Both the position numbers and the translations under genes were made by a program. 42,576 bases of DNA. Source: Bifidobacterium breve (lineage in GTDB: Bacteria > Actinomycetota > Acidimicrobiia > Acidimicrobiales > Ilumatobacteraceae). A model generated the notes under the pieces. The model saw only the letters and a list, made by a program, of their open reading frames with translations, did not search any database and had not been told where the DNA came from. Below are positions 32,994-42,576 of this stretch, in pieces. Each line of letters starts with the position of its first letter. The stretch's first letter is position 1. The DNA is taken from the NCBI GenBank assembly GCA_945893395.1, contig CAMDEC010000007.1, positions 1 through 42,576 of the forward strand, written 5' to 3'.

Positions 32994-33845
32994 GTGGCTG
33001 ACATCTTGTTGATCGCGGGTCTTTCTGGGGCTGGGCGTTCGCAGGCTGCCGATGATCTCGAAGATTTGGGCTGGTTCGTCGTCGACAACATGCCAACCGA
33101 ATTGATCGATAAGGTCGTCGAGATCGCCGCCGTTGGCGAGGCATTAGCCAAACTGGCGCTCGTTGTAAGCACCCCTTCGGCGCAACTTGATGTCGTAGAT
33201 GTATTGAAGCGACTTCGCCTTTCTGGGCACCGCGTGCGAATGTTGTTTCTCGATGCGACCGTCGCCGAGTTGGTCAAACGTTATGGAGCGACACGACGCA
33301 AGCATCCACTTGCTGAAGGCAATTCAGGTGTCGAACAGGCAATTTCAAAAGAGCGCTCACTTCTCGAACCTGTCAAAGCCGAAGCAGATTTGGTGATTGA
33401 TACGACCAATTTGACGATTTACCAGTTGAAGTCGCAACTTGGTGAGCTGTTTACCGAAGATGGTGTGCTTGATTCTATACAAGTTTCAATAGTTTCATTT
33501 GGCTACAAGCACGGACTGCCACTGGATGTAGATCTTGTTTTTGATGTGCGTTTTCTGCCTAACCCGCATTGGGACGAGAACTTGCGGCCGTTGTCGGGTT
33601 TAGATCAACCGGTTCGCGATTTCGTAATGAGTCAAGATTTGTCGGGAGAGTTTCTGAGGCAACTGCAAAACATGCTCACAATGCTCTTGCCCGCATATAA
33701 GCAAGAGGGAAAGAGTTACTTGACTGTTGCTATCGGATGCACGGGTGGGAGACATCGATCAGTTGTGATTGCTGAGCAAGTAAAACAGTGGCTAATTCAG
33801 AACTCTCATAATCCACGCACAACGCATCGCGACATTTCTCGCTAA
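32994..33845 (+). CDS. rapZ: RapZ/YvcJ-family nucleotide-binding protein
   Basis: RapZ-family proteins bind ATP/GTP and, in E. coli, act as RNA-binding adaptors controlling amino-sugar synthesis; the actinobacterial role is less clear. The 283-residue protein has the P-loop GLSGAGRS (9-16), DLGWFVVDNMP, the Walker B-like MLFLDA, and the C-terminal block with FDVRFLPNPHW and IGCTGGRHRSV. The actinobacterial order is normally uvrC-rapZ-yvcK-whiA-gap; here yvcK and whiA are absent and gap starts 27 bases after the stop. The start is GTG. Confidence 0.93.
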   Translation: MADILLIAGLSGAGRSQAADDLEDLGWFVVDNMPTELIDKVVEIAAVGEALAKLALVVSTPSAQLDVVDVLKRLRLSGHRVRMLFLDATVAELVKRYGATRRKHPLAEGNSGVEQAISKERSLLEPVKAEADLVIDTTNLTIYQLKSQLGELFTEDGVLDSIQVSIVSFGYKHGLPLDVDLVFDVRFLPNPHWDENLRPLSGLDQPVRDFVMSQDLSGEFLRQLQNMLTMLLPAYKQEGKSYLTVAIGCTGGRHRSVVIAEQVKQWLIQNSHNPRTTHRDISR

Positions 33846-33859
33846 ATCGCTGATCCGAC

Positions 33860-33865
33860 TAAGAT
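33860..33865 (+). promoter_or_regulatory. Candidate -10 box of a leaderless gap promoter
   Basis: TAAGAT ends exactly seven bases before the gap ATG at 33873. It agrees with the TANNNT leaderless signature and lies in the 27-base rapZ-gap gap, which has no Shine-Dalgarno. Inferred. Confidence 0.45.
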
Positions 33866-33872
33866 TTCGGAC

Positions 33873-34883
33873 ATGACGATTCGAGTAGGTATCAACGGTT
33901 TTGGTCGCATTGGCAGAAATTTTTATCGCGCAGTGAAGATGTCGGGTGCCGACATTGAAATTGTCGCTGTAAACGACCTTGGTTCGGTGAAGACGATGGC
34001 CCACTTGCTTAAATACGACTCGGTGCTTGGCGTCTTGCCAAACGAGATCAAGGCCACCGATGAAGGCATCAGCATCGATTCGAAACTGCTCAAAGTTTTG
34101 TCAAAACGCGACCCGAAAGAGTTGGGATGGGGCGCTCTCGGTGTGGATGTCGTAATTGAATCAACGGGATTTTTCACCGAGCGTGACAAGGCGGCATCAC
34201 ATTTGGAGGCTGGCGCGAAGTGTGTTGTTGTGTCGGCCCCCGCGACCAACGCCGACGCGACCTTTGTCTACGGCGTGAATCACAAAGATTTTGATCCGAA
34301 AAAACATAAGGTGGTCTCAAACGCGAGTTGCACGACGAATTGTTTCGTTCCTCTAGTGAAAGTATTAGATGATGCATTTGGGGTTGAGAACGGTTTGATG
34401 ACGACGATTCACGCTTACACGGGCGATCAATCGATTGTCGACGGGCCCCACAGTGATCTGCGACGAGCGCGGGCGGCGGCGATCAACATCATTCCGACGA
34501 GCACCGGTGCCGCCAGAGCCACAAGTTTGGTTATGCAATCGATGAAAGGCAAACTCGACGGCACTTCGTTGCGGGTGCCCGTGCCGACGGGGTCGATCAC
34601 CGATTTTGTTGCGAATCTCAAAAAACCTGCGACTGTCGAAGAAATAAACTCGGCTTATAAAGTCGCGGCAGAAGGCCCGCTCAAAGGCATTCTTGAATAT
34701 TGCAGTGACCCGATCGTGTCAAGCGACGTGGTGACCAATCCGCATAGTTGTGTGTTTGACAAAGATCTGACCATGAGCATGGGCACACTCGTCAAGGTGC
34801 TGGGTTGGTATGACAACGAGTGGGGTTACTCAAATCGACTGGTGGACATGACTTCGTTTATCGGGGCCGCACTTAGTCGCTAG
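33873..34883 (+). CDS. gap: Glyceraldehyde-3-phosphate dehydrogenase
   Basis: GAPDH converts glyceraldehyde-3-phosphate to 1,3-bisphosphoglycerate with NAD. The 336-residue enzyme has the N-terminal GINGFGRIGRNFYRA, the catalytic Cys153 in SNASCTTN, the His in IHAYTGDQ, and the C-terminal WYDNEWGYSNRLVD. The Asp at 35 in VAVNDLG favours NAD over NADP. The stop TAG touches the pgk ATG, so gap-pgk-tpiA is one translational unit. Confidence 0.97.
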   Translation: MTIRVGINGFGRIGRNFYRAVKMSGADIEIVAVNDLGSVKTMAHLLKYDSVLGVLPNEIKATDEGISIDSKLLKVLSKRDPKELGWGALGVDVVIESTGFFTERDKAASHLEAGAKCVVVSAPATNADATFVYGVNHKDFDPKKHKVVSNASCTTNCFVPLVKVLDDAFGVENGLMTTIHAYTGDQSIVDGPHSDLRRARAAAINIIPTSTGAARATSLVMQSMKGKLDGTSLRVPVPTGSITDFVANLKKPATVEEINSAYKVAAEGPLKGILEYCSDPIVSSDVVTNPHSCVFDKDLTMSMGTLVKVLGWYDNEWGYSNRLVDMTSFIGAALSR

Positions 34884-35993
34884 ATGATCGCTCATTTAGA
34901 AGATCTTGGGGATGTACGCGGTAAGACGGTGCTCGTGCGCACTGACTTTAACGTGCCGATGTCGGGACCAGATGACAACAGAAAGATCGAAGATGACTTT
35001 CGAATCCGCAGTGCGCTCGAGACCTTGAATTGGCTGACAAGTCGTGGTGCAAAAGTAGTTTGCGCGACGCACTTGGGTCGTCCGAAAGGTAAGCCAGTTG
35101 CTAAATATTCTCTTGAACCAGTGCGCAAACGACTTGCTGAGTTGGCGCCAGGTGTAACTCTTCTCGAGAACCTGCGATTTGATGCCGGCGAAGAGGCGAA
35201 CGATCCCGCATTTGTTGCGAGATTGATAGGCGGCGTTGAGATTTATGTGAATGATGCCTTTGGCGCCGCGCACCGAGAGCATGCATCGATTGTCGGACCG
35301 CCGAAATCGTTGCCATCTGCCGCGGGTCGATTGTTGCAACGTGAGTTGGATGTTTTGTCTGAGATGAGATCAAACCCGAAGCGACCGTTTATCGCAGTTT
35401 TGGGTGGCGCGAAAATCAGTGACAAACTTGGGGTGATTGAAGCGCTAATTAATGTAGTAGATGAATTAGTTATTGGTGGTGGCATGTGCTTTACATTTCT
35501 GGCAGCGAAGAATCTGCCGATTGGTGACTCGCTTTGCGAACCCGATCAGATCGCGGCCTGCAAGAAACTTTTGTCGGGAAGCGTGAAAATTCATTTGCCT
35601 GAAGACATCGTCGGATTAGACGCTGATGGCGAGTTTGCAACTTTTGGCGCGCGACTGCCTGACGGAGCGAAGGGTCTCGATATTGGTCCTGGCACCGCGG
35701 CGGCGTTCGCCGACATCATCATCAATGCACGCAGCGTATTTTGGAACGGACCGATGGGGATGTTCGAAGACGGGCGTTTTGCGGCGGGTACGCGAACGGT
35801 GGCACAAGCGATGGCCGACACGAAGGCATTTACGGTTGTGGGTGGTGGAGACTCGGCTGCAGCACTTGCACAATTTAAATTAGAGACTGAAGTCGACCAT
35901 GTCTCAACTGGTGGAGGAGCGTCATTAGAGTTTCTGCAGCTTGGCGACTTGCCGGGCCTTGTGGCGTTGCGAGGAGCACCAAATGTCAAGTGA
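34884..35993 (+). CDS. pgk: Phosphoglycerate kinase
   Basis: Pgk makes ATP from 1,3-bisphosphoglycerate. The 369-residue protein has the N-terminal VLVRTDFNVPM, CATHLGRPKG, the hinge FAAGTRTVAQA region, and the C-terminal nucleotide loop VVGGGDSAAAL and STGGGASLEFL. At 369 residues it is shorter than the usual 390-415. The N-terminal and hinge motifs are intact, so small loop deletions are more likely than truncation. It abuts gap upstream and overlaps tpiA by 11 bases downstream. Confidence 0.95.
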   Translation: MIAHLEDLGDVRGKTVLVRTDFNVPMSGPDDNRKIEDDFRIRSALETLNWLTSRGAKVVCATHLGRPKGKPVAKYSLEPVRKRLAELAPGVTLLENLRFDAGEEANDPAFVARLIGGVEIYVNDAFGAAHREHASIVGPPKSLPSAAGRLLQRELDVLSEMRSNPKRPFIAVLGGAKISDKLGVIEALINVVDELVIGGGMCFTFLAAKNLPIGDSLCEPDQIAACKKLLSGSVKIHLPEDIVGLDADGEFATFGARLPDGAKGLDIGPGTAAAFADIIINARSVFWNGPMGMFEDGRFAAGTRTVAQAMADTKAFTVVGGGDSAAALAQFKLETEVDHVSTGGGASLEFLQLGDLPGLVALRGAPNVK

Positions 35994-36786
35994 GAATCGA
36001 AAACCGATCATAAGTGGCAACTGGAAGATGAATCACAATCACTTCGAGGCGATTCAGTGCGTTCAAAAACTTGCGTATCTTTTGACGAAAGATGATTTTG
36101 CTGCCGTTGACGTGACGATTCATCCTCCTTTCACCGATTTGCGAAGTGTGCAAACACTGATTGATGCCGACGAGTTGCGATTCATTCTTGGTGCCCAACA
36201 TTGTCATGAGGCCGATACGGGTGCGTTTACTGGCGAAGTGTCGGCGCTTTTTTTGGCAAAACTCAATGTGAGTTACGTGATCGTTGGTCACAGTGAGCGG
36301 CGTGAAATTTTTGGCGAGACAGATGAACTAGTGCACAGCAAAATTGCGACGATCCAAAAAAGCAAGATGACGCCGATTGTCTGCGTCGGTGAAACCCTTG
36401 CCGAGAGAGAGGCTGGTCGCACACACGACAAAGTTTTGGGTCAAGTGAGAAGCGCATTAGAGAAACGATCGATTGACCAAGTTAAGTCAATGGTGATTGC
36501 TTACGAACCGATTTGGGCAATCGGCACTGGAAAGACCGCGACTACTGATGACGCGCAGCGGGTTATCAGTGCGATCCGCGAGGAAGTCGCCAAGATCTCG
36601 TCGGCCCCAGCCGCGAATGCAATTCGATTGCAATATGGCGGCAGTGTCAAGGCCAGCAATATCGCTGAAATTATGGCTCAACCCGATATTGACGGTGTCT
36701 TGGTTGGCGGCGCAAGCCTTGACGCGGCCGAGTTCGCTCGTATTTGCCAATACCGCCTTAGGGCCACCAACAATTCATCGCCCTGA
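35983..36786 (+). CDS. tpiA: Triosephosphate isomerase
   Basis: TpiA interconverts DHAP and glyceraldehyde-3-phosphate. The 267-residue barrel has the N-terminal SGNWKMN with the catalytic Lys15, VGHSERRE with the electrophilic His, and AYEPIWAIGTGK with the catalytic Glu and loop 6. The phosphate loop LQYGGSVK and LVGGASLDAAEF follow. I chose ATG 35983, with GAGGAG about seven bases upstream, over a more 5' ATG at 35941. It overlaps pgk by 11 bases. The usual next gene secG is absent; a peptide transporter follows. Confidence 0.96.
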   Translation: MSSENRKPIISGNWKMNHNHFEAIQCVQKLAYLLTKDDFAAVDVTIHPPFTDLRSVQTLIDADELRFILGAQHCHEADTGAFTGEVSALFLAKLNVSYVIVGHSERREIFGETDELVHSKIATIQKSKMTPIVCVGETLAEREAGRTHDKVLGQVRSALEKRSIDQVKSMVIAYEPIWAIGTGKTATTDDAQRVISAIREEVAKISSAPAANAIRLQYGGSVKASNIAEIMAQPDIDGVLVGGASLDAAEFARICQYRLRATNNSSP

Positions 36787-36890
36787 ATTCATGGCAATTA
36801 CTGCTTTTTTAATCCGTAAATCAGTCTGTTAGTGTTTAACCAACTAAGGGCCGGTTTGGCTTTTACCTAATTCGACGGGGAGGTCGGAGA

Positions 36891-38642
36891 GTGAGAAAAA
36901 CCACAAAAGTGGCTCGTCTTGCTGCAGCACTCATCACCGTGTCATTAATTGGCGCGGCGTGTGGTGGCAGTGACGACGAAGCAGCAGAAGTAACAGAAGA
37001 AACAGAAGCGCCAGCCGAAGAAGTTACGGCTGTCAGTTATCCAACAAGTTTGGATGACTGCGCAAACGTCACTTATGACTATGCGAAGCCAGCAACTGTT
37101 GGTGGAATGACAATTACATATGACATCAACCCAGCCGCAGTTTGGGAAGACGGGTCGCCAATTACGGCAGCCGACTTCGCCGCCACGTGGGAAGCGTCAT
37201 TGAACACACCAGGTTCGATTTCGACATCTGGTTACGACCAAGTGACAGCGGTGGCAGCCGGTTCAAGTGACAAACAAGTTGTTGTCACTATGAAAGCCGT
37301 TTACGCGCCGTGGCGTGGTTTGTTCGGTGCACTCATCAAGGCTGCTTCAGTCAAGAACACGAAAGATGTTTCTGGGGATTATGCAGACAACATTCCGTTC
37401 TCGGGACGTCCATACAAGATTAAGTCTTGGAGCCAAGATCAAGTTGTGTTCGTGCCAAACGACAAGTATTGGGGCACCGACAAGGCTGTCACCAAGAAGT
37501 TCGTAATGGTGCCAAAGGCTGACAGCGACACAGAAATCGCCGCGCTTAAGGCTGGTGAAGTTGACTTCATTTACCCACAATTCTTTGCGGGTATCGAAGA
37601 GGCTGTGAAGCAGGACAACATTCAAACCAACCTTGACTACGGTGGCGACTACGAAGGTTTCTACTTCCAACAGAAGTGCGGACCATTCGCAGATCCGAAC
37701 TTCCGTGCGGCGTTCTCGATGTCAATCGATCGTGAAGCATTGTTCGAGCAGATCTACATTCCACTCGGTGGAAAAGAATTGCTTCAGTGCGGCCCGATGG
37801 TGCCTGGACCGTTTTGCAACGGCGACGAGTTCGCTAATGGCTACGACCCAGCAGCAGCAGAAGCTTTGTTGACCGAGAATGGTTGGACAAAGGGAACAGA
37901 CGGCTACTGGGTTGACCCAAGTGGCAATGTCCCAGATATCCGTTGGATCATCAATACCGGCAACACACGCCGCGAGAGTACCCAGGCTTATTTGATTCCG
38001 TTGCTTAATGCATCAGGTTTCAAAGTGCGCGCAGACAACTGCGATGCCGCTTGCTACTTCCAGCAACGTTTGCCAGGTATGGACTATGACATGGCGATGT
38101 ATATCAGCACAGCACCACCAGACCCGGCTTACCTCACTGGTGGTTTCGCTTGCGACCTGATTCCGACTGAAGCCAATGGCAACATTGGTCAGAACAGTCA
38201 GGGTTGGTGCAACGCTGAGGCTTCAGATTTGCTTTATGCAGCAGATGTTGATGCCGATGCAGCGACTCGTGCAGACAAGGTCAAGCAGGTTCTTGCGCTT
38301 ATGGCGAAAGATCATGTGATGTTGCCTTTGATGCAGTTCCCGAAGTCGGGTTTCGCACGTACTGACAAGGTCGGCGGTCCATGGAACGGAGAACTCAACA
38401 ACTACGCAGCATTCAACAACATTCACCTATGGGAAGATCTTGACGGTGATGGACAAATTGTGCTCGGTGCCGAGCAATGGCCAGAGTGTCTCAACCCAAT
38501 CACTGAGTGTGCAAACTCTTCGTGGATGGTTTGGACAACTGCATTCCAGGTAATGCCAGGTGCTTACGCAACTACCAATGATGGTAAGTACGTGATGACT
38601 AACCTGCTTGCTGGTGAGGCAACGGTTGTAGTCAAGGGCTAA
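36891..38642 (+). CDS. Family 5 peptide-binding lipoprotein, apparently circularly permuted
   Basis: This 583-residue protein binds oligopeptides or related ligands for the transporter encoded downstream. It starts with a signal peptide ending IGAACG (predicted lipid-modified Cys24) and a Glu/Ala/Thr-rich linker. Residues 73-96 (TITYDINPAAVWEDGSPITA) match the family's usual block after the first lobe. The family's normal mature N-terminal block, with GAEQWPECLNP and NLLAGEATV, instead lies at residues 525-583, after the loop EDLDGDGQ (515-522). The protein therefore looks circularly permuted. The start is GTG with GGGGAGG about seven bases upstream. A strong terminator follows within 30 bases. 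The 104-base gap before it has a T-run but no clear hairpin. Confidence 0.9.
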   Translation: MRKTTKVARLAAALITVSLIGAACGGSDDEAAEVTEETEAPAEEVTAVSYPTSLDDCANVTYDYAKPATVGGMTITYDINPAAVWEDGSPITAADFAATWEASLNTPGSISTSGYDQVTAVAAGSSDKQVVVTMKAVYAPWRGLFGALIKAASVKNTKDVSGDYADNIPFSGRPYKIKSWSQDQVVFVPNDKYWGTDKAVTKKFVMVPKADSDTEIAALKAGEVDFIYPQFFAGIEEAVKQDNIQTNLDYGGDYEGFYFQQKCGPFADPNFRAAFSMSIDREALFEQIYIPLGGKELLQCGPMVPGPFCNGDEFANGYDPAAAEALLTENGWTKGTDGYWVDPSGNVPDIRWIINTGNTRRESTQAYLIPLLNASGFKVRADNCDAACYFQQRLPGMDYDMAMYISTAPPDPAYLTGGFACDLIPTEANGNIGQNSQGWCNAEASDLLYAADVDADAATRADKVKQVLALMAKDHVMLPLMQFPKSGFARTDKVGGPWNGELNNYAAFNNIHLWEDLDGDGQIVLGAEQWPECLNPITECANSSWMVWTTAFQVMPGAYATTNDGKYVMTNLLAGEATVVVKG

Positions 38643-38669
38643 TCGCTCGTAACTTGAGTTAATTCAAAG

Positions 38670-38715
38670 AAGGTGCGTCGGCTCAGTTGAATCTGGGTCG
38701 ACGCACCTTTGTTTT
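38670..38715 (+). terminator. Strong intrinsic terminator after the binding-protein gene
   Basis: AAGGTGCGTCG (38670-38680) and CGACGCACCTT (38699-38709) form a perfect 11-bp stem. Six more pairs, two of them G-U, extend it inward around a TTGAAT loop, and TGTTTT follows. It should stop most transcription between the binding-protein gene and the permease gene, letting the binding protein be made in excess. Confidence 0.8.
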
Positions 38716-38775
38716 AAGGTGACATTTGAGGTGGAAGTTCTGATTTTTTTAAGCGAGTTAGGCAGACTGTAGGCG

Positions 38776-39750
38776 ATGCTCCGCTACATTCTCCGACGCC
38801 TGGCGTGGTCTGTACCCACGCTGCTGCTGGTTACTTTCTTGGTCTATCTTGCCCTGCGAATTGGTACAGACCCTGTTGAGAGCTATAAACGGGTGAACCC
38901 GCGCGCAAGTCGCGCCAAAATTCAGCAATACATCGACATAAACGGGTTGGATCCAAATTTTGTACAGGGTTACTTTAAGTGGTTAAAGAATTTCATAACT
39001 GGCGAGTGGGCACCGAGCATCAAGGGGCGTCGCGAAGTTTGGCCCGCGCTCAAGGATGCGATGGCCAATACTTTACGTCTTGGCACTGCCGCTACGGTCG
39101 TGGGAATTTTCTTTGGATTGATCGCCGGCGTGCTGGCTGCGTTGCGCCCAGGCGGCAGGCGTGATGTCTTTATAAATACGAGTGCTTTCGTTGGCATTTC
39201 GATTCCGCCGTTTATTAGTGCGATTTTATTGCAGCTTTTATTTGCGGTTTATTGGCAGCGATGGTTTGGAGAAAGTTTGTTTCCGACTTCAGGTGTCTAC
39301 CCAGCAGGGCACTCTGGTTTCGACTTGTTCTTAATGCTCAAGTTCATGGCTCTTCCGACAATTATCGTGGCGATCCAGATTATTGCGACGTATAGCCGCT
39401 ACATGCGTTCGTCACTCCTTGATGTGATGAATTCTGATTACATGCGCACCGCACGCTCAAAGGGCATTAGTGAACGCCGCATATTGATTAAACACGGGAT
39501 GCGCAACGCGCTGATACCGGTTGTGACTATTGCTGCGCTAGATGTCGGCTCTATCGTCGGCGGGTTGATCATCACGGAAAATATCTTCGCCTACCCTGGC
39601 ATGGGGCTCTATTTTTTGAAGTCGTTTGGTGATGGTGACTTTCCGCTATTGATGCCATGGATGGTTGTAATTGTTGCGTCGATCCTGCTGTTCAATTTGA
39701 TTGCAGACATTTCATATGCCTGGCTTGACCCAAGGATCCGCCTTGAGTAA
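38776..39750 (+). CDS. Dipeptide/oligopeptide ABC transporter permease, DppB-type
   Basis: This 324-residue protein has about six hydrophobic helices, starting with RRLAWSVPTLLLVTFLVYLA. The helix pairs near residues 108-128, 136-158, 190-210, 245-265 and 290-312 are typical. The cytoplasmic EAA-type loop, which contacts the ATPase, appears as YMRTARSKGISERRIL. The family's motif with RSSLLDVMNSDY also fits DppB/OppB. The promoter and translation signals before the ATG are unclear. It is the first gene after the terminator and starts the four-gene permease-ATPase run. Substrate: peptides or nickel-like ligands by family; peptide is inferred from the binding protein. Confidence 0.92.
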   Translation: MLRYILRRLAWSVPTLLLVTFLVYLALRIGTDPVESYKRVNPRASRAKIQQYIDINGLDPNFVQGYFKWLKNFITGEWAPSIKGRREVWPALKDAMANTLRLGTAATVVGIFFGLIAGVLAALRPGGRRDVFINTSAFVGISIPPFISAILLQLLFAVYWQRWFGESLFPTSGVYPAGHSGFDLFLMLKFMALPTIIVAIQIIATYSRYMRSSLLDVMNSDYMRTARSKGISERRILIKHGMRNALIPVVTIAALDVGSIVGGLIITENIFAYPGMGLYFLKSFGDGDFPLLMPWMVVIVASILLFNLIADISYAWLDPRIRLE

Positions 39751-40663
39751 TCAAAATAAAAAAGTATTGTCGCCGCGACAGATGGCATTTCGACGGTTCG
39801 TCTCGCACAAAGCCGCCGTGGTTAGTTGCATCATCATCGGAATTTTGGCATTATTTGTAATTTTGGCACCATTCACGGCGCGATACGGAGTCAATCAATC
39901 TGTGCAGGCACCACCGAATTCGTTTCTTTCGCCCCGCAGCAACGCTTGGCTCGGCACAGATGACATCGGCCGTGATCTTTACAGTCGTTTGATTTACGGT
40001 GTTCGTGTCTCACTTTTGATTGGGCTGGCGAGCGCACTAATTTCTGTAACCCTTGGCGCGCTAGTCGGAGCAGTTGCAGGTTTTCGTGGTGGCAAATTTG
40101 ACGACATCCTGATGCGTGTCACAGACCTGTTCTTGGCTTTCCCATTCTTGGTGACTTTGTTAGTGGTACGAAATGTTCTTGGTGGGTTGCCTTGGCTTAA
40201 ACCTCTAACTGGCGAAATGAACTCTGTTCGTTTCATTATTGTTTTGTTCAGCATCTTCGGCTGGATGGGTGTCGCTCGAATTGTGCGCGGTCAAGTTCTG
40301 TCGCTTAAAGAGCGAGAGTTCGTCGAAGCGGCCCGAGCCGTGGGTGCTTCAAGGCGGTACATTATCGCTCGACATTTGTTGCCTAATTCAGTTGGTCCGA
40401 TCATGGTCGCGCTTACTTTTTCTGTAGTTGGTGCAATCATCGGCGAGTCAACGCTTGCATTTTTTGGTTATGGACCTCAGGCGGGAGACGGCGCTACATC
40501 ACTCGGCATTTTGGTTGGTGCAGCCAAAGGGGCGGTACAAACTGGCTTTTGGTGGCTGGCAGTGTTTCCGTGCTTTATGTTGATCATTATTGCTCTGAGC
40601 ATCAATTTCATTGGCGATGCGTTGCGTGATGCAACTGACCCGCGTCTTGATCGGGGCGTGTGA
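39743..40663 (+). CDS. Dipeptide/oligopeptide ABC transporter permease, DppC-type
   Basis: This is the second permease, 306 residues from the TTG at 39743. I chose this start because AAGGA lies six bases upstream. The in-frame ATG at 39701 would overlap dppB by 50 bases. The N-terminal helix AAVVSCIIIGILALFVILAP is followed by the extracellular segment with WLGTDDIGRDLYSRLIYG, a signature of DppC/OppC proteins. Further helices and the cytoplasmic loop with EFVEAARAVGASRRYI, the EAA-type motif that contacts the ATPase, follow. It overlaps the permease above by eight bases and the ATPase below by one base. Confidence 0.92.
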   Translation: MSNQNKKVLSPRQMAFRRFVSHKAAVVSCIIIGILALFVILAPFTARYGVNQSVQAPPNSFLSPRSNAWLGTDDIGRDLYSRLIYGVRVSLLIGLASALISVTLGALVGAVAGFRGGKFDDILMRVTDLFLAFPFLVTLLVVRNVLGGLPWLKPLTGEMNSVRFIIVLFSIFGWMGVARIVRGQVLSLKEREFVEAARAVGASRRYIIARHLLPNSVGPIMVALTFSVVGAIIGESTLAFFGYGPQAGDGATSLGILVGAAKGAVQTGFWWLAVFPCFMLIIIALSINFIGDALRDATDPRLDRGV

Positions 40664-41643
40664 TGGCTGAAAAAGTTTTAGAGATACGCGATTTGCATGT
40701 CACTTTTGATACGCCCTCGGGGCCCCTTGAGGCAGTGCGTGGCATCGATCTCGACGTTGAAGCGGGTGAGCTTCTCGGCGTCGTAGGCGAATCTGGCTCG
40801 GGAAAGTCTGTGAGTTTCTTGGCGACAATGGGATTGCTGCCGGCCCGTGCGCGAGTTACTGGTTCGGTCTTGTTGGCGGGCGAACAGTTGATCGGTGCTT
40901 CGGCTAAACAGATGCGTTCTGTGCGGGGACGATTGTTGTCGATGATTTTTCAAGATCCGCTGTCCGCACTAAATCCGGTGCATCGAATCGGCAATCAGAT
41001 TTCTGAAATGTTGCGATCGCATCAAAGTCTGTCGTCTCGTGATGCCGACAAGCGTGCGATTGAACTGCTCGACATCGTAGGCATTCCGCAACCTAGCGAT
41101 CGCGCACGACAGTATCCACACGAATTCTCTGGTGGCATGCGGCAACGCGTGGTGATCGCAATTGCGATCGCAAATAACCCGAAGGTGTTGATCGCTGATG
41201 AACCAACGACGGCGCTCGACGTGACAGTGCAGGCCCAAATTCTCGAAGTTATTGAACGGGTGCAAGAGCGCTTCGGTACGGCTGTCGTATTGATTACGCA
41301 TGATCTTGGCGTGATTGCTCGTGTCGCGGATCGGGTCAATGTTATGTATGCGGGGCGCAATGTTGAGCAGGGCACAATCGACAACCTCTTTGACCATCCG
41401 AGTCACCCATATACGCGCGGATTATTGGCGTCGCTGCCGCGACCTGGCAAGCAGCGATTGAAGCCGATCACGGGGTTTCCGCCGAATATGGTTAACCCAC
41501 CAAAGGGTTGCGCGTTTCACCCACGGTGTGAGTTCGCCACCGATGTTTGCAAAAGTGAACTGCCGAGTCTCGTCAGTTATGGCGATTTGCAGACTGCGTG
41601 TATTCGGGCAAAAGAATTGCCAAAGGCCGTGATTTTGACATGA
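40663..41643 (+). CDS. Peptide ABC transporter ATP-binding protein, DppD-type
   Basis: This 326-residue ATPase has Walker A GESGSGKS, the Q loop in [11 protein letters not shown], signature [12 protein letters not shown], Walker [13 protein letters not shown] and the switch His in ITHDLGV. The C-terminal oligopeptide extension with [15 protein letters not shown] has the conserved Cys cluster. The start is ATG 40663, forming TGATG with the permease stop; a GTG at 40660 is an alternative adding one residue. The stop overlaps the next ATPase as ATGA. Confidence 0.94.
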
Positions 41644-42576
41644 GTTCTGAATTGTTGAAGGTGACGAACCTCGTCAAGAATTTTGAACTGCGTGTCGACA
41701 AAGGCGCGCGGCGTCGAAAGCGGACTGTCCAAGCGGTCACGAATGTTTCATTCTCCGTTGCTAAAGGTCAGACACTGGGTTTGGTGGGCGAGTCTGGTTC
41801 TGGAAAAACAACAGTTGGTCGCTGTATTTTGCGATTGATTGAGCCGACGTCTGGCAGCGTTGAATTCGAGGGCCAAGAACTGGGCTCGCTGAAATTCGAA
41901 GAGATGCGGGCGCTGCGACGAAAAATGCAGATCGTTTTTCAAGATCCGTTCGCATCGCTTGACCCAAAGATGACTGTAGGTGCGTCTATTTCTGAACCGC
42001 TGATCGTGCAGGGTGTGCCAGGCGACCACGCTGACAAGGTTCTAGAGCTGCTCGAGTTGGTCGGCCTTTCGGCTGATCACGCACAGCGATTTCCGCATGA
42101 GTTTTCGGGGGGTCAGCGTCAACGAATTGGTGTCGCTCGGGCTCTTGCCCTGAACCCGGCGCTGATCGTTTTGGACGAACCAGTCTCGGCGTTAGATGTG
42201 AGTATTCAAGCTGGTGTTGTAAACCTTTTTGAAGATCTGCAATCAAGACTCGGCATGAGCTATGTCTTTATTGCGCACGACTTGTCAGTTGTGCGTCATA
42301 TTGCTGACCGTGTGGCGGTGATGTATCTAGGAAAGATCGTCGAAATCGGTGACCAAGAAGCCGTGTACGCGAATCCGACACATCCGTATACGAAGGCATT
42401 GTTGTCCGCTGTGCCACTGCCTGACCCGAAGACCGAGCGCACAAGAAATCGGATAATGCTCGAAGGTGATGTGCCGTCACCAGTTAACCCGCCGTCAGGA
42501 TGTCGTTTTCGCACGCGCTGTTGGAAGGCGCAAGATGTATGCGCACAAGAAGAGCCGATGCTTGCTGTGCGTCCGA
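41640..42576 (+). CDS. Peptide ABC transporter ATP-binding protein, DppF-type (3' end outside window)
   Basis: The frame is open from ATG 41640 to the window edge, giving about 312 residues. Visible parts are Walker [10 protein letters not shown], the Q loop [12 protein letters not shown], signature [12 protein letters not shown], Walker [13 protein letters not shown] and His in [10 protein letters not shown]. The C-terminal extension has [15 protein letters not shown] with the usual Cys cluster, so only a few residues are probably missing. It forms the ATPase pair with the upstream gene. The ATG overlaps the previous stop by four bases. Confidence 0.93.

Follow-up and report, generated by a model that had tools for sequence, protein, structure and literature searches.

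An apparent circular permutation of single origin in a lipoprotein-like family 5 binding protein linked to OppBCDF-type genes

Introduction

The window analysed in the present study, a stretch of 42,576 nucleotides, contains a gene for a putative peptide-binding protein whose parts appear in an unusual order: the block that opens the mature chain of normal-order family 5 binding proteins lies at the C-terminal end. A preliminary description, made from the sequence alone, had proposed that the original ends of the protein were joined and new ends opened between two blocks. The question raised by the locus is whether this is a circular permutation or only resembles one. Our analysis indicates, with high confidence, that the product of this gene is a lipoprotein-like binding protein of family 5 (cluster C) with a circularly permuted chain, serving an importer of the OppBCDF type. 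The block with which the first lobe normally opens would follow the old C-terminus, and the mature chain would start where that block normally ends.

Architecture of the binding protein

The open reading frame at 36891-38642 on the plus strand is real, has a GTG start and encodes 583 residues, with the following parts:

36891..36962, plus strand: signal peptide with a lipobox-like end (residues 1-24, LIGAAC, Cys24), read from the sequence
36963..37103, plus strand: linker (residues 25-71), from alignment
37104..38435, plus strand: main body (residues 72-515), from Pfam, profile matches and structural alignment of model residues 70-519
38436..38453, plus strand: seam (residues 516-521, DLDGDG), its last two residues overlapping the moved block
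38448..38639, plus strand: moved first-lobe block (residues 520-583), from the block profile; found at the N-terminus in relatives of normal order

The Pfam SBP_bac_5 family (PF00496) matched residues 71-415 (E 2.9e-54, 185 bits against a curated cut-off of 32.4), entering the profile at position 15 with query residue 71, and none of the NCBIfam models reached its cut-off for this protein. The main body, residues 72-515, is the counterpart of the part that follows the first block in normal-order family 5 proteins, and its matches reach near their C-terminus. Family 5 membership is indicated by the profile match above cut-off together with the predicted fold of residues 71-519 and linkage to Opp/Dpp-type permeases and ATPases, the N-terminal first-lobe block being absent; because that block is C-terminal, the protein is a permuted variant and not a standard member of the family.

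As first described, TITYDINPAAVWEDGSPITA occupies residues 74-93 and occurs once. The motifs GAEQWPECLNP (residue 526) and NLLAGEATV (residue 571) likewise occur once each, and the C-terminal position of the block that holds them stands, although its start, originally given as residue 525, falls slightly earlier, homology placing the block at about 521-579. The statement that no copy of the block exists at the N-terminus was borne out by a six-frame scan of the window (stretches of at least 20 residues) with a profile of the last 62 residues. This returned one convincing copy (E 1.6e-42) and no second copy, N-terminal or out of frame, the next two matches being noise (E 0.08 and 0.32).

The GAAC of the window protein resembles a lipobox with Gly at -3, for which reason the strict lipobox pattern misses it. 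That pattern was matched by 44 of the 59 permuted proteins with enough N-terminal sequence, and GAAC was present in 13 of the other 15. The linker, residues 25-71, is poorly conserved among distant permuted relatives, and mean pLDDT in ten-residue blocks over residues 21-70 was 24-54 in the first of the two AF2 models described below.

Rotation restores an end-to-end match

The native protein was compared with a profile of normal-order relatives (510 positions, built from 34 normal-order rows, the two lowest-scoring of the 36 available at that stage being omitted) and matched it as two out-of-order pieces of 413.5 and 65.9 bits (475.6 bits for the whole protein). When the last 64 residues were moved to the front, the rotated protein matched as a single piece from profile position 1 to 509, with 493.5 bits (493.6 for the whole protein). 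Whole-protein scores of 200 rotated versions with a shuffled block averaged 414.9 (sd 1.8), with a maximum of 428.2. With all cut points tried, the best single-piece score was obtained at 513-521. The proposed circular permutation is thus supported, each of the two blocks occurring once, in swapped order, and rotation restoring one end-to-end profile match. Chance is excluded by the shuffle control and by the retention of the same order across many separate assemblies.

Pairwise BLAST comparisons with normal-order relatives gave the same exchange of segments. Against L096, query residues 75-514 aligned with 228-668 and residues 521-576 with 162-217 at 50% identity; against L136, residues 69-514 aligned with 156-610 and 518-567 with 89-138, again at 50% identity. 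The normal-order relatives could be aligned over their full length, with the first block, to EppA (6wm6, chain residues 20-562), so that the block has a counterpart at the N-terminal end of a solved structure. For many other solved family 5 chains, the alignment to the normal-order profile begins only beyond the block. Profiles of the moved block alone, built from 10 permuted or 13 mixed rows, found no family 5 chain among PDB sequences, each returning one unrelated weak match (E 0.33 and 0.46).

Block order among relatives

A total of 131 distinct open reading frames of at least 400 residues with a main-body match were obtained from 195 loci, shorter frames being left uncounted. The first-lobe block, detected at a threshold of E 0.01 with a profile built from permuted proteins only, lay at the C-terminus of 66 and at the N-terminus of 38; it escaped detection in 27, and no frame had it at both ends. 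An earlier set of 128 frames had given 66, 36, 26 and 0, respectively. Despite its composition, the profile detects the N-termini of normal-order proteins, with E values from 2e-20 (L157) to 9e-4 (L138). The frames in which no block was detected, which were excluded from the trees, are mostly distant normal-looking binding proteins, together with three from Listeria and a few fragments.

The search for homologues with the same order and for close relatives with the normal order, suggested in the preliminary description, thus found both (66 and 38 of the 131 frames). Normal-order relatives within the same class include L193 (39-40% identity) and L195 (35%), and those within the same family include L157, which is the same gene as L136, and L137 (37-38%).

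Predicted structure

Two AF2 models were examined. The first was built from an alignment of 32 rows (the window protein and 31 of the 57 members of the near-identical-locus set) and had a mean pLDDT of 57.9; the second, covering residues 71-583, was built from 47 rows (44 permuted proteins, window included, and three from Listeria) and had a mean pLDDT of 73.7. In Foldseek searches both models matched family 5 chains, with best E values of 1.1e-18 and 4.1e-24, respectively. Sequential structural alignment of the first model with VIA-align (Z up to 15.0) matched residues 70-519 from about chain residue 58 (NikA) or 108 (EppA) to the C-terminal end. The second model reached a Z of 23.9 to 8j5t over 419 residues (rmsd 8.7 Å), an alignment that covers residues 71-519 only, and a Z of about 22 to several NikA chains over 326-332 residues (rmsd about 4 Å); its full-length rows had an rmsd of 8-9 Å, and many rows start near model residue 94, at about 4 Å.

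Left unmatched by the sequential aligner were the N-terminal stretch of the solved chains and model residues 520-583. On these models the unmatched ends would form the pattern expected from a permutation, an indirect indication. Within the moved block of the second model, mean pLDDT was 83 for residues 521-530, which hold its first strand, and 81 for residues 571-580, with ten-residue blocks over 531-570 at 41-52. In the proposed arrangement the fold would be retained, the moved block would complete the first lobe, and the lipid anchor would enter the fold at a different point. Such a shift of the anchor depends on the moved block packing into that lobe.

Phylogeny and origin of the permutation

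Phylogenetic trees were inferred from the main body, leaving out the permuted block, after removal of near-identical rows at 95% (102 to 84 rows) and 85% (104 to 55 rows). In the 84-row tree all 53 permuted proteins fell on one side of one branch (support 100/100), and a single change of order was obtained in all 200 bootstrap trees. A second tree, of 55 rows with more normal-order proteins and a mixture model, placed its 31 permuted proteins in the same split (100/100), again with one change of order in all 200 bootstrap trees. Both are to be read with their long branches, their uneven composition and an outgroup that does not fall on one side of a branch. Since the permuted forms all lie on one side of one branch, the permutation apparently arose once, as judged from sequence comparison.

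Nearest to the permuted group are L193 and L195 (98/96), normal-order proteins from another family of the same class, both with Tpi upstream and OppB downstream. Because these nearest relatives share the Tpi/OppB context, the permutation most likely happened in place, between tpi and oppB, although linkage to tpi is missing from most normal-order relatives. A tandem duplication followed by partial deletion would provide a route. No duplicated intermediate with both copies of the block was found among the 131 frames, so we infer the route and do not observe it. Normal-order relatives survive in the same gene context within the class, and a before-and-after pair is thus directly comparable. Such a pair bears on how the seam is stabilised and on whether docking to the permease is sensitive to the site of lipid anchoring.

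Alternative explanations

One alternative, an assembly or annotation artefact, draws on the fragmented, metagenome-like source assembly of 117 contigs. It is refuted by many separate assemblies that show the same order, among them G049 (7 contigs) and G059 (about 20 contigs), and in which the neighbouring genes are often shared as well, and we regard it as having a negligible chance of being correct. Scarcely more credible is a truncated binding protein with a partial fold and an unrelated or decorative C-terminal tail. That the sequential aligners leave residues 520-583 unmatched would fit such a tail, but normal-order relatives have a first block that matches the tail (best E 2e-20), the tail keeps conserved residues along its length, and the end-to-end profile match is restored on rotation; an unrelated tail is thereby refuted at the sequence level. 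The preliminary description had also held a terminator 28 bases after the stop codon to argue against truncation. The hairpin is real, starting 26 bases after the stop by our fold, but a co-directional oppB follows it, and with this placement the hairpin by itself has little bearing on truncation.

A third history would give the same architecture in two steps, with the first block lost and a homologous C-terminal block later gained from another binding-protein gene. The absence of any intermediate with both copies (0 of 131) would suit this history, and a part derived from a different gene has been proposed for the comparable Tp0684 of Treponema pallidum (PMC4990184). Against it, the moved block and the main body have the same close relatives, the block being 43% identical to L193 and L195 (main bodies 39% and 35%) and 50% identical to L136 (main body 38%), and a blockless intermediate would probably not fold. 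We consider loss and regain improbable. On balance, the window protein belongs to a known family and represents a true circular permutation, apparently with a single origin.

Gene neighbourhood

The binding-protein gene is preceded and followed by co-directional genes:

32994..36786, plus strand: RapZ, GAPDH, phosphoglycerate kinase and triosephosphate isomerase, upstream, from NCBIfam
38669-38710, plus strand: strong terminator- or attenuator-like hairpin with a T-rich run behind it, in the interval separating the binding-protein gene from oppB
38776..39750, plus strand: OppB/DppB-type permease, from Pfam BPD_transp_1
39701..40663, plus strand: OppC/DppC-type permease, from Pfam BPD_transp_1 and OppC_N, true start probably downstream
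40660..41643, plus strand: OppD-type ATPase, from Pfam ABC_tran and oligo_HPY, best NCBIfam match OppD, below cut-off
41598..42575, plus strand: OppF-type ATPase, best NCBIfam match OppF, below cut-off, cut by the end of the window, true start probably downstream

Among the upstream genes, RapZ, GAPDH and TPI scored above an NCBIfam cut-off, and PGK was recognised through the PGK portion of a bifunctional PGK/TPI model, with a score below cut-off. The order from RapZ, GAPDH, PGK and TPI to the binding protein and OppBCDF (32994-42575) is partly common to permuted loci and to 11 of the 38 normal-order loci. Among loci with 900 or more bases of upstream sequence, 52 of 56 permuted ones and 11 of 38 normal-order ones showed a Tpi relative; among those with as much sequence on the downstream side, an OppB relative was present in 54 of 59 and 34 of 36, respectively. 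Gap, Pgk, Tpi, OppB and OppC occurred together in 33 of the 66 permuted loci. Two genomes of the window's family (loci L095 in G042 and L138 in G254) carry a distant normal-order protein (about 33% identity) in the equivalent place, between tpi and oppBC.

The OppB of the window is 54-99% identical to that of other permuted loci showing one (56 of 65), and 33-47% identical to that of normal-order loci showing one (35 of 38). As the window OppB is closer to those of permuted loci, the comparison is consistent with a binding protein and opp genes that are inherited together as a cassette. As predicted from these sequences, the surface protein of this group of environmental actinobacteria probably captures peptides or similar ligands for import, and it would deliver them to OppBCDF.

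The hairpin between the binding-protein gene and oppB has 18 pairs and a folding energy of -32.7 kcal/mol (z -8.26), with none of 200 shuffled sequences as stable; it was not listed by a consensus terminator scan. Its effect may be no more than to set unequal expression, with less permease made than binding protein.

A calcium-loop motif at the seam

In the window protein the old C- and N-termini are joined by DLDGDG (residues 516-521). The strict pattern Dx[DN]xDG was found at the seam of 63 of the 66 permuted proteins, the exceptions being L092, L151 and L149 (DLDGDR), and in none of the 38 normal-order proteins from the first block onward. A relaxed motif followed by a hydrophobic residue was present in 64 of 66 permuted versus 0 of 36 normal-order proteins. 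In one protein of normal order, L182, the linker carries DADGDG immediately before the block; if the permutation went by tandem duplication with deletions, such a linker could have supplied the seam.

Dx[DN]xDG is known as a calcium-binding loop, probably of convergent origin and biased to periplasmic, surface or secreted proteins (Rigden et al. 2011, PMC3123361). The window protein has the motif in common with these loops, and its seam is a putative calcium site that could bind Ca2+ and hold the former ends together. A more speculative sequence of events, which we think has a minority chance of being right, would have the permutation create a calcium loop at the seam that holds the old ends together and makes folding or ligand release calcium-dependent, and would have the altered architecture then permit orphan proteins in genus g13 that have left the importer, or a membrane-spanning receptor domain behind an Hsp70-like domain at locus L093, both described below.

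Comparison with known systems

The best structural matches of the model include EppA (6wm6), OppA of Mycobacterium tuberculosis (Rv1280c, 8j5q) and LpqW (2grv), all homologous to it in the main body (E 2.7e-20 to 4.9e-15). EppA and Rv1280c carry the first block at the N-terminus, whereas the window protein carries it at the C-terminus. For glycine-betaine binding proteins, OpuAC and ProX are permuted relative to each other and belong to a different fold cluster from family 5; our literature search returned nothing on that permutation.

A closer parallel is Tp0684 (MglB-2) of T. pallidum, assigned to 'cluster Bc', a membrane-tethered ABC binding protein with a natural circular permutation in which strands of the first lobe are relocated to the C-terminus; its authors suggested that tethering possibly favoured the new topology (PMC4990184). 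The comparison, made by description, is between different folds, Tp0684 having the Type I/cluster B glucose-binding fold while the window protein belongs to PF00496 and has its best fold matches in family 5. The calcium site of Tp0684 is common to the canonical MglB of Escherichia coli, whereas the putative calcium motif of the window protein lies at the seam of the permuted forms.

Searches of open-access full text returned no family 5 protein described as naturally permuted. The mentions in two candidate reports (PMC2588589 and PMC2265533) proved unrelated, and excerpts of a paper on DppABCDF (PMC12136057) held no usable anchor geometry. New features of the present case are the Dx[DN]xDG motif at the seam of permuted forms and a genus with permuted copies apparently without a transporter. 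As family profiles match only the middle of the window protein, further permuted cases may be hidden.

Taxonomic range and divergent forms

Matches at E ≤1e-30 were found in 96 of the 221 genomes of the window's family, not all of them permuted. Across 397 genomes of the order, 38 matched at E ≤1e-50; nine of these run through the seam and 29 stop at or before position 518 of the 577 in the model. Seven of the nine seam-spanning genomes belong to the window's family, and G265 and G385 to two others. Among 396 genomes of the phylum 14 matched, five through the seam, and among 395 genomes of the class 13 matched at E ≤1e-100, nine through the seam, all seam-spanning cases in both samples falling in the window's family. 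These three samples overlap, and misses are possible in them because at most three candidates were scored per genome. Nearly all permuted cases seen thus fall in the window's family. A search of viral contigs yielded no further relatives.

The near-identical loci come from MAG records that mostly bear the labels Ilumatobacteraceae, Acidimicrobiaceae, Acidimicrobium or Actinomycetota (some acIV), and some of their titles name lakes (Lanier, Baikal, Pavin). A few of these MAGs, for example those of L025 and L019, are titled Bifidobacterium breve or Ferrithrix thermotolerans and look mislabelled.

Genus g13 (L139, L149, L094, L154 and L155) has divergent permuted proteins with 30-34% identity, on a long branch, that keep Pgk and Tpi upstream. 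No opp genes were found downstream of L139, L149 and L154 within the 1.5-3.1 kb of available sequence. An OppB of more than 35% identity was absent from eight of the nine g13 genomes with a permuted match, all judged from incomplete assemblies; the ninth, G110, has both types. It is possible that the g13 proteins are orphans or have been repurposed.

A further variant was seen at locus L093 (G038:C29, 2325-4703, minus strand), where a frame of 793 residues combines an Hsp70-like match, a hydrophobic segment and then one permuted binding domain. The HSP70 match is weak (Pfam E 5.8e-5, 21.9 bits against a cut-off of 20.6).
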